33,110 nucleotides of DNA from Acidilobaceae archaeon. Lineage in GTDB: Archaea; Thermoproteota; Thermoprotei_A; Sulfolobales; Acidilobaceae. The stretch spans positions 1-33,110 of the forward strand of contig JALWPV010000084.1 of the NCBI GenBank assembly GCA_027080775.1, given 5' to 3'. Position 1 is the first letter of the stretch, and every line of letters starts with the position of its first letter. Of this stretch, positions 7,341-33,110 are shown piece by piece. A model generated the notes under the pieces. It did not search any database and was not told the DNA's origin. It worked only from the letters and a program-made list of their open reading frames with translations. Both the position numbers and the translations under genes were made by a program.

Positions 7341-7382
7341 GGGGGAGGACGGATTCCAATGATGTGCCCGGGGCCGCGGGGT

Positions 7383-28286: not shown

Positions 28287-29204
28287 GTGCCCGGCAGGCT
28301 CGCTAGGATCCTCGAGGCCCTGAAGGACGATGACTATAGGGTGCTGAGGGCCATAGAGAGGAACCTCGGCCGCTACGAGTACGTCCCAGCCGAGGTCGTG
28401 GAGAGGCAGTCGAGGCTGCCGCCCTCGAGGCTCCTGAGGAGCCTCAGGAGGCTCTCGGACCTCAAGCTCGTGAGGAGGACCCTTGGGAGCGTGATAGGCT
28501 ACACCCTCACGTTCCCGGGCCTCGACGCGCTGGCCATCAGGGCCCTCACCGCTAAGGGCGTGATAGAGGAGCTGGGCGACGTCATAGGCGCCGGTAAGGA
28601 GAGCGACGTCTACATAGCCCTGACCCCCACGGGCCGCAGGGTCGTTGTGAAGCTCCACAGGGAGGGGAAGGCCCCCTTCCACAGGATAAGGAGGACCAGG
28701 AGCTTCGCCGCCGACTTGAATAGGAGGAGCCTCATACTATGGGCCAAGCTCCTCGGGGAGAGGGAGTTCAAGGCCCTCCTAGAGCTCCACGCCCGGGGGG
28801 CCCGGGTGCCGGAGCCCATAGCGTGGAACAGGCACGCCGTTGTCCAGGGCCTCGTGGAGGGGGCCGTGGAGCTCTACCGGGTCCCCCCTCTCACCGTGGG
28901 GGAGGCGCGGGAGGCCCTGGCCCAGGTGCTCGAGACGGTGAGGATAGCCTATAGGGAGGCCGGCATAGTGCACGGCGACTTGAGCGAGTACAACGTACTG
29001 GTGGCCGAGGAGGACGGGGGCGTCGGGGCCTACGTCATAGACTGGCCCCAGTACGTCTACGCCGCCGAGCCCCACGCAAGCGAGCTCCTGGAGAGGGACG
29101 TGCGCTACATCACGAGGTTCTTCCGCTCCAAGTACGGCGTCGAGGCCAGCCTCGAGGAGGCCCTCGCCTACGTTAGGGGTGAGAGGGGTGAGCCGCCGGT
29201 CTGA
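28287..29204 (+). CDS. rio2: RIO2-family atypical protein kinase
   Basis: This kinase/ATPase acts in maturation of the small ribosomal subunit. It has 305 residues. The N-terminal winged helix (about 1-85) is specific to RIO2 and separates it from RIO1. The RIO kinase domain has the ATP loop GAGKESDVYIA, Lys in VVVKLHREG, the catalytic loop IVHGDLSEYNVLV and the metal Asp in VIDWPQYV, with the flexible-loop region FHRIRRTRSFA. GTG 28287 is used. Its last codons overlap the start of the DUF460 gene, so the two are probably translated from one mRNA. Confidence 0.97.
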   Translation: MPGRLARILEALKDDDYRVLRAIERNLGRYEYVPAEVVERQSRLPPSRLLRSLRRLSDLKLVRRTLGSVIGYTLTFPGLDALAIRALTAKGVIEELGDVIGAGKESDVYIALTPTGRRVVVKLHREGKAPFHRIRRTRSFAADLNRRSLILWAKLLGEREFKALLELHARGARVPEPIAWNRHAVVQGLVEGAVELYRVPPLTVGEAREALAQVLETVRIAYREAGIVHGDLSEYNVLVAEEDGGVGAYVIDWPQYVYAAEPHASELLERDVRYITRFFRSKYGVEASLEEALAYVRGERGEPPV

Positions 29205-31200
29205 GGGGCCCGTCTACATGGGCGTCGACCTGGAGTCCGGAGAGCCGGGATCCCCCGGGGCGAGGTACTCCATAGCCCTCGTGGACGGGGACGGCAGGCT
29301 GCTCGAGAAGGTGGAGGGGGCCAGCCTAGCCAGGATCCTCAGGCTGGCCTGGGAGTGGAGGCCCGAGGCTATAGGCACCGACAACCCCTACGAGCTCGCC
29401 AGGACAGGCAGGGACCTGGCGAGGATCCTGGAGCTTCTCCCCCCCAAGACGAGGCTCGTCCAGGTCAACGTCGTCGACGGGAGGCCCGTTAGCCTGAGGG
29501 AGGCCGCCTCGAGGGCCGGCCTCGAGGCGGGGCAGGGCAAGCTCAGCCCGGGGAGGACCGCATACCTCGCAGCCGTGCTGGCGGCCAGGGGGCTGGGGGC
29601 GCCACTGGAGCTTGTGGGTGAGAAGACCATCATAACCGTCTCGAGGGGGCGCTGGAGCAGGAGCGGTGGCATGAGCGAGGCTAGGTACCAGAGGAGGATC
29701 AGGGCCAGCGTGAAGAGGGCGGCCGATAAGGTCAGGGAGGCCCTAGAGAGGGCTGGCCTCGACTTCGACGTCACCTACAGGGAGGCCGAGGGAGGCCTCG
29801 ACTCAGCGGTCTTCACGGTCTACGCCCCGAGGGAGAGGCTCGTGGGCGTTGTGAGGCCCCACAGGGGCGTGGACTACACGATAAGCGTCAGGGTAGCCCA
29901 TAGGGGCGAGGTCCGCCTGGCCGGCGCGGGGCCCGAGAGGCCTGATAGGCCCCTCATAGTAGGCCTCGACCCAGGCCAGACCACCGGCCTCGCCGTGCTA
30001 GACCTCCATGGGAGGGTCCTCCTGACGACGGCTGGGAGGGGCCTGGATAGGGGGGCCATAATAGAGATACTCGAGTCCCTCGGGAAGCCCGTTATTGTAG
30101 CGGTCGACGTTGACGAGGTGCCCGAGGCGGTTAGGAAGCTGGCGGCCCAGTTCAACGCAGAGCTATACCACCCCGACAGGCCCATGAGCGTCGCCGAGAA
30201 GTCCGCCCTCGCAGCCAAGGCCCTAGGAGGCAGGCTCCCCGGGACCACCCACGAGAGGGACGCCCTAGCGGCTGCCTATAGGGCCTACCTGAACCTCCAG
30301 GCCAAGCTGCGCCACCTCGAGAGCTACCTCTCCAAGTTCGACGTCGACATAGACCCGCGGAGGGTCAAGGAGGCAGTGATAAGGGGCATAACCGTGGCCG
30401 AGGCGGTTGAGAGGGAGCTCGAGAGGATCCTCTCACCAGCCCTCCAGGCCCCGGGGGAGCCCCCCAAGCCCCAGGCCCGCGGGGAGCCCAGGTGCCCCCA
30501 GGGCGAGTCGGAGAGAATCCACCTCCTCGAGGCCGAGGTTAAGAGGCTCCAGGCCGAGGCCGAGAGGGAGAGGAGGAGGGCTGAGAGGCTCGAGGTGGAG
30601 CTCGGGGAGTGCAGGGCCAGGCTGCGCTCGGCCCCCCAGAGGGGCCCCGAGGCCCTCGAGGCCGAGGCTAGGAGGCACGCTGAGAGGGCCTCCAAGCTGG
30701 AGGCCGAGGTGGAGGCCCTCAAGGGCGCCCTGGAGAGGCTGACAAGCCTAGCGGTGAGGGCCGGGAGGGGGGAGGTACTCGCCGCCAGGATCCTCCCAGC
30801 CCTGACCAGGCCCCGCTTGAGGGAGACAATCGAGAGGGAGGGCCCCCTGAGGGAGGGGGAGGTTGTTGTAGTGGAGAACCCGGGCCACTTCGACCGGGAG
30901 GCCCTGGACGCCCTCGCCGAGGCGGGCGTGGCCGCCGTCCTCCTGCCCGGGTGGAGCGGGGGGCCCCTGAGGCTGGCCCGGGAGTTGAAGAGGAGGATGA
31001 TACCCCTCCTGAGGCTGGAGGACTACCTCGTCGAGATAGCCGGGGGCTACGCCTTCGTGGACTCTAGGGTGCACCTGGACGCCGAGGAGTGGGTTAGGAG
31101 GGTCCGGGAGGAGAGGGAGAGGCAGCTCGACCTGGAGAGGATTGTGAGGGAGTACAGGGAGATGAGGGCTAGAAGAGGGTCACCTCGCCGCGGAGTATGA
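29188..31200 (+). CDS. DUF460 (COG2433) family predicted RNase H-fold nuclease
   Basis: This archaeal protein of unknown function (670 residues) shows three parts. Residues 1-200 are a first RNase-H-like domain ([32 protein letters not shown]). About 245-370 form a second, RuvC-like domain with [42 protein letters not shown] and [14 protein letters not shown], whose Asp residues could bind metal. About 460-545 form a long Glu/Arg-rich coiled coil. The C-terminal part (about 555-670) has further alpha/beta structure. GTG 29188 follows GGTGAGA; GTG 29179 and ATG 29218 also fit. It overlaps rio2 by 17 bp, and its 3' end overlaps convergent mat by 32 bp. Nuclease activity is inferred from fold. 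Confidence 0.85.
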
Positions 31201-32389
31201 GGTCGGTCAGCTCCGTTATCCTCGATAGGGTCTCGTCCACTATCCCCGTTATCTCGGCCCTCATGTCCCCGGTGAGCCTAGCCCCCTCCTCTAGGTTCAC
31301 CTTCACATCAGCCACTAGGGGGTCGTCTATGGGCCTGCCTATCTGGCTAAGGAGCTTCACGTAGACCTCCCTGACCCCCTTCACCTGCTCGTAGATCTTC
31401 CTGGCTATTATGTTGGCGGCAACGTTGTAGATCTTGCCTACGTGGCTCACAGGGTTCTTGCCGGCGGTTGCCTCGAGGCTCATGGGCCTGAGCGGGGTTA
31501 TGAGCCCGTTGGCCCTGTTGCCCCTGCCCGTGGCGCCGTCGTCGCCGTGCTCGGCGCTGGTGCCCGTGACTGTCAGGTAGTACACGCCCTTCTCGGGTAT
31601 GTCCCCCGTGTTAACGTGTACGTGGACCTCGTAGTCGGGGGCTAGCCTGGAGGCGAGGTCGAGAACAGCCTCCCTGACGGCCTCCTTGGCGGCCTGGTAC
31701 TCCCCCGAGTCCCTTATGAGCCTGCTTATCATAGCAGCGGCTATCGTAAGGTCTATCCTCCTACCCCTCCTCAGCCCCATGACCTTTATGTCCTCGCCAA
31801 CCTCGGGGTGCCTCTGCTTGAAGTCCCCGCTGTTGAGGAGCCTCTCCGTGCTCAGCACCAGGTTCTCGAGTGTTGAGAGGGGGTAGAAGCCGCTGCCAAA
31901 GCTCGTGTCGTTGGAGCGCGGCACGCTCCTAGCGTTCTCGAATAACCCCACGAGGTCGACGCTCCCCTTCCCGATCTTGTAGTCAACTATGACGTGGGAC
32001 TCGGGGTCTAGGAAGCGGAAGTTCTCCCTTATCCACCTCTTAACAGAGCCCACGACTAGGCTGCCGACGGGCACGTGCTCCACTCCATCCTCAGTCTTGA
32101 CCTCCGTCGTGGCCCTCCCACTCACGATTATGTATATCGGGTGGAGTAACTCGCCCCCGCCGAAGCGGGGGGAGGCCTGGCCCCCGACTAGGAGGACCTT
32201 ATCAAGGTTGTGGTGGAGGATCCTCCCGAACCTCTTGAGGTAGTACTCGCTGAGGGCCCGGGAGGCCGCCTCCGCGGCCGCGTCGCTAATGTAATCCGGG
32301 TGGCCCAGGCCCTTCCTCTCAACAAGCTCGACCTCGAGCTCCTCAACGGAGGGGTAGGGGAAGGGCTCGACCACTATATTCCTGGCCAT
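31169..32389 (-). CDS. mat: S-adenosylmethionine synthetase, archaeal type
   Basis: This enzyme makes SAM from methionine and ATP, supplying the methyl donor for FlpA and TrmY in this window among others. The 406 residues match the archaeal MAT family, which is distinct from bacterial Met[87 protein letters not shown] and [17 protein letters not shown] 32389 lies about 26 bp from a TATA box centre, as in leaderless genes. It is convergent with the DUF460 gene. Confidence 0.98.
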
Positions 32390-32488: not shown

Positions 32489-33109
32489 TCATGGCAGGAC
32501 CAGGTTGTAGACGCTAACCCAGAGCCCCAGGAAGAGGGCGGTATACGCCACGGCCCCCTCCACCGCCACCGAGGCTCCATGCCTAGCGGAGGCGGCCAGC
32601 GTGGCCGCGAGGCCTGCCAGGTAGAGGATTATGGGGGCCCAGAGCGACCCGAGGGGCCCGGGGAGGGAGCCGCTCGCCAGGCCGGCGGCCGAGCCCGCTA
32701 GGAGGCCCGCGAGCGTGGAGGCCGCAAGCATCCTACGCCTCCTCGGCGAGAGGGCCCAGAGGCTCACAGCGGGGCGCACCAGCGCGGCGGGGGTCAGGTT
32801 GGAGAGCCAGCCCAGAGCCAAGGCTGCCCCCAGAGCGGCGCACCGGCGGGGTGTGGGGCCTTCCTGCAGGATGCGCACCATCCCCCAGAGAGCCAGCGCG
32901 CCGAAGAGGGCAGCCCCGTTGTCGTCGTTGACGGCGCCGGAGATGAAGAGGAACTCGGGGATGAAGGCCGCGAGCCCGGCTGCCCCGACGGCCATCTCGG
33001 GCCGATCCGGGAAGACCTCCTGGCCGATTCGGTAGATCACCCAGACCGTGACCGCGCCCATCAGCACGGAGACGAGTCGGACCACCCGCAGGCCCAGCCA
33101 GGTGTCGCT
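32489..33109 (-). CDS. Partial membrane glycosyltransferase-like protein with mosaic codon usage
   Basis: The frame is open to the right edge, so the N-terminus is missing; the visible 206 residues end at TGA 32491-32489. The first part (VVRLVSVLMGAVTVWVIYRIG, then FIPEFLFISGAVNDDNGAAL) resembles bacterial, especially Chloroflexota, GT-C/DUF2142-type polytopic glycosyltransferases. The last 85 residues contain three hydrophobic segments without a clear family. Arg codons in the first part are all CGN (eight of eight) and Ile is ATC. After about 32750 Arg is mostly AGG, and an ATA for Ile appears, as in the rest of the window. It may be a recombinant gene, a transfer, or an assembly join. GTG 33085 is not a credible true start. 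Confidence 0.6.
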   Translation of the reverse strand, partial: SDTWLGLRVVRLVSVLMGAVTVWVIYRIGQEVFPDRPEMAVGAAGLAAFIPEFLFISGAVNDDNGAALFGALALWGMVRILQEGPTPRRCAALGAALALGWLSNLTPAALVRPAVSLWALSPRRRRMLAASTLAGLLAGSAAGLASGSLPGPLGSLWAPIILYLAGLAATLAASARHGASVAVEGAVAYTALFLGLWVSVYNLVLP

Positions 33110-33110
33110 T

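Follow-up and report, generated by a model that had tools for sequence, protein, structure and literature searches.

The right edge of the window, i.e., the whole 33,110-bp stretch of DNA that was analyzed, raises the question of whether a thermophilic archaeon carries a gene that is partly bacterial. The window is an entire contig (C84) of an assembly of 85 contigs and 1.78 Mb (completeness 99.9%, contamination 1.1%), and the open reading frame at its edge therefore sits at a contig end. The frame runs on the minus strand from 33109 to a TGA stop at 32491–32489, is open throughout, and encodes 206 amino acids. The initial annotation described it as a Chloroflexota-type half followed by an archaeal half, with a switch in codon usage at about 32750, and proposed an in-frame transfer or fusion or, alternatively, a chimeric assembly join. 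We conclude with near certainty that no such mosaic gene exists and that the frame is an artefact, namely the product of an ordinary chimeric join at a contig end. The features of the region are as follows.

32794..33110, minus strand: foreign stretch; internal fragment, cut at both ends, of a Chloroflexota (Thermoflexia/Anaerolineae) PMT_2 membrane glycosyltransferase gene, most likely outside the archaeal chromosome
32774..32793, minus strand: junction zone; G+C-only microhomology with the end of contig C23 at 32783–32793, codon change point at 32774; homology to the Thermoflexia locus L008 ends nearby, at 32769
32489..32779, minus strand: archaeal small gene; probable GTG start at 32779, 96 amino acids, hydrophobic, with homologues in the genomes G001, G003, and G051
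31169..32389, minus strand: metK, S-adenosylmethionine synthetase (AdoMet_Synthase, PF01941, E = 5e-174); syntenic anchor

Farther into the window, a long DUF460 protein is encoded at 29179–31200 (plus strand), directly 3′ of the Rio2 kinase gene (28287–29204).

The two parts of the frame have different relatives

Separate protein searches on either side of the switch agreed with the division into a bacterial and an archaeal half: residues 1–111 matched Chloroflexota only in a scan of genome contigs, and residues ~107–206 matched archaea of the same genus. Residues 1–111 were 89% identical in amino acid sequence and 86% identical in nucleotide sequence to L008, from the Thermoflexia J88 metagenome-assembled genome (MAG), and showed 66–79% amino acid identity to related stretches in two MAGs of Anaerolineae, also Chloroflexota. 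The DNA match to Thermoflexia was 86% over 33109–32769, and a search for a closer donor in the class to which the Thermoflexia genome belongs (298 genomes) found none above 86% nucleotide identity. The frame matched the Pfam family PMT_2 (PF13231, E = 1.6e-15) due solely to its first part, and the protein motifs cited in the initial annotation were correct. Residues 1–111 thus align to the PMT_2 domain as the membrane glycosyltransferases of Chloroflexota do, but they represent an internal slice of such a protein. The fragment begins at approximately residue 119 of the Thermoflexia protein (profile position 22 of PMT_2), and its homology breaks off before the end of the domain, so that a complete domain in a full-length protein is not present. 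The L008 glycosyltransferase has 734 amino acids and its gene extends beyond the join point, as is also the case at L009 and L010, whereas the N-terminal ~118 and the C-terminal ~500 residues of the Thermoflexia protein are absent here. Near the join, the conserved LSK of the bacterial relatives (in LSKLT) reads LSN (32800–32798), and this Asn could reflect donor variation or a read error. The residue after LT is P (32791–32789), unlike in the bacterial relatives, and could be explained by the archaeal part of the microhomology described below. A native second PMT_2 gene was also considered as the source of the fragment. The only other PMT_2 match was on contig C28 (a separate 393-amino-acid frame, 34 bits), and it was ruled out because this frame had no match to the Thermoflexia protein.

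Residues ~107–206 matched short proteins of 110–140 amino acids in two of the three same-genus archaea, with 51–52% amino acid identity (G001 and G003), and were 40% identical to a protein of G051, which belongs to another family of the same order. The short gene in G001 and G003 is located directly upstream of the S-adenosylmethionine synthetase gene on the same strand, as it is here, and in the archaeal relatives it stands without any glycosyltransferase part. The metK gene of the window is itself 81–82% identical in nucleotide sequence to L004 and L005. We consider that the true archaeal gene probably begins at the GTG at 32779 and encodes a membrane protein of 96 amino acids. No Pfam family was found for this small protein, and the part of the frame past 32750 gave no credible Pfam match. 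The members of this small hydrophobic archaeal family without a Pfam match are 32489–32779 (minus strand), L004:1375–1797, L005:1444–1776, and L006:1444–1755. In a more distant relative, the gene adjoins an apparent family-B DNA polymerase gene.

Codon usage and the position of the junction

Counted from the contig edge inward, the Arg codons are eight CGN down to 32750, followed by four AGG and one CGT, and the split at 32750 was significant (Fisher p = 0.007). The Ile codons are five ATC on the bacterial side, and one ATA and one ATC on the archaeal side. The codon switch reported earlier was therefore confirmed, and the statement that Ile is always ATC at the edge holds for the bacterial side, although the archaeal side has one ATC as well. 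Two of the Arg codons, namely CGC at 32776 (the eighth CGN) and CGT at 32737, lie at or past the join. When codon likelihood models based on the neighboring archaeal genes and on Thermoflexia genes were compared, the log-likelihood in favor of bacterial usage climbed to +28.3, with its peak at 32774 (range 32792–32744), and then dropped; over the foreign stretch, 32794..33110, it was +26.7. In the DNA comparison, the homology to L008 stopped at 32769, and the identity per 30-base bin was 21–30 of 30 (70–100%) before the join and 10–15 of 30 (33–50%) after it. The microhomology with the end of another contig, C23, corresponds to 32793–32783. The junction is thus at 32793–32774, instead of at ~32750 as first annotated. 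The DNA is 70–76% G+C, a composition in which stop codons are rare, so a frame that stays open over the junction is unsurprising and gives little information.

The archaeal chromosome most likely continues on another contig

In G003, a KaiC-like ATPase gene, the short gene, and metK are arranged in this order on a single strand, and the KaiC-like gene is only 13 bases upstream of the short gene. The ortholog of the KaiC-like gene in the window's own genome (85% amino acid identity) was found at C23:6517–7335. Contig C23 is 7,374 bases long and ends 39 bases past the stop of this gene (7335), in a run of G and C only. Its last 11 bases (7364–7374), CCCCCGCCGCG, are identical to 32793–32783 of the window on the minus strand. 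Only 0.2% of the positions in C23 end a match of at least 11 bases to anywhere in the 622-base stretch at the edge, and a match that also falls in the correct 20-base zone is rarer still. When C23 is placed before C84, the gene order of G003 is obtained, with ~42 bases from the KaiC-like stop to the GTG at 32779. The position of the KaiC ortholog near the terminus of C23, together with the presence of that contig's final 11 bases at the junction, indicates that the archaeal chromosome most likely runs from C84 into C23 and not into bacterial DNA. This adjacency is based on the gene order of a single relative, G003, combined with the 11-base match. The gene upstream of the short gene differs in G001, where it encodes a cyclase-type protein, so the neighborhood is not fixed and rearranges within the genus. 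The cyclase-type gene of G001 was also tried as a pointer to the neighboring contig, and had no match in the window's genome. A weak DNA match on contig C29 (49 bases, 80%), in an alanine-rich, G+C-rich sequence, was taken as chance.

Alternative explanations

We considered the possibility that the frame records a genuine and very recent horizontal transfer, in which the archaeon captured part of a glycosyltransferase gene from Chloroflexota, which was inserted after the KaiC-like gene and became fused in frame to the small membrane protein upstream of metK. The frame is open over the join, a hot habitat of this kind could plausibly contain Chloroflexota DNA, and the difference between G001 and G003 upstream of the small gene shows that changes occur at this position. 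However, the bacterial segment represents an inner part of a 734-amino-acid protein, without its two termini, and occurs at the contig end only; the foreign stretch reaches that end, so host DNA does not flank it on both sides. When a near full-length Thermoflexia homolog was used as the query, no further part of the bacterial gene was found in the assembly, and none of the related genomes searched contained the fusion. Furthermore, the 11-mer of the junction forms the very end of C23, which has no bacterial bases there, and this speaks against the transfer or fusion suggested in the initial annotation. We therefore regard such a capture as very improbable. Even less probable is a strain variant, in which some cells would carry the bacterial insert and others a continuous C23–C84 sequence, with the assembler taking the variant branch. 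This would also account for the fact that both contigs break off here, but it needs a real insertion in some cells, which nothing beyond the contig end supports, and the simpler join accounts for everything. Finally, a single native archaeal gene with odd codon use in its first part would fit the one open frame, but it is practically inconceivable and, as far as sequence comparison can tell, already refuted by the homology split, since the similarity to Thermoflexia covers exactly the first part and ends at the join, and the relatives' small gene lacks that part.

A chimeric join as the most probable explanation

A chimeric join explains these observations best. The two sides of the junction differ in their closest relatives and the homology of both stops at the same point; beyond it, the archaeal side continues at the end of C23 and the bacterial gene continues in L008, L009, and L010. 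The alternative already offered in the initial annotation, a chimeric assembly join, is borne out by the syntenic upstream gene at the end of C23 and by the junction 11-mer in which that contig ends. In such a join, the archaeal contig end would have been extended across the G+C-only stretch by ~317–337 bases of Chloroflexota sequence, and the donor was presumably a Chloroflexota organism in the same sample (best reference, 86% nucleotide identity). The join may have formed via the short microhomology, perhaps continuing into CTGGTGC, either during library preparation, through template switching or ligation, or during assembly, through a merge based on weak overlap. A short motif is shared at the break (Thermoflexia, CCGCCGCCCTGGTGC; window, CCGCCGCGCTGGTGC), and together with the G/C-only stretch, which may also have broken the contig, it would offer a natural way to form the join. 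With a chimeric join, the codon switch itself is real and the mosaic gene is not, and the open frame across the join is due to chance and has no biological meaning.

Chimeric contigs and contig-end misjoins are the kind of problem in MAGs that GUNC (PMC8201837) addresses. The present case resembles chimeric MAG contigs in that two lineages occur in one contig, with an abrupt boundary, a position at the contig terminus, and a short G+C-rich microhomology. It differs from the usual ones in that the foreign part is ~320 bases, below the size of one gene, and tools that rely on gene counts would probably miss it. The join was exposed without raw reads, by synteny in relatives and the orphan end of another contig, and the C23–C84 link would improve the assembly. 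As a caution for claims of gene fusion between domains, in G+C-rich DNA, a chimera smaller than a gene at a contig end may preserve the reading frame and mimic an inter-domain fusion.
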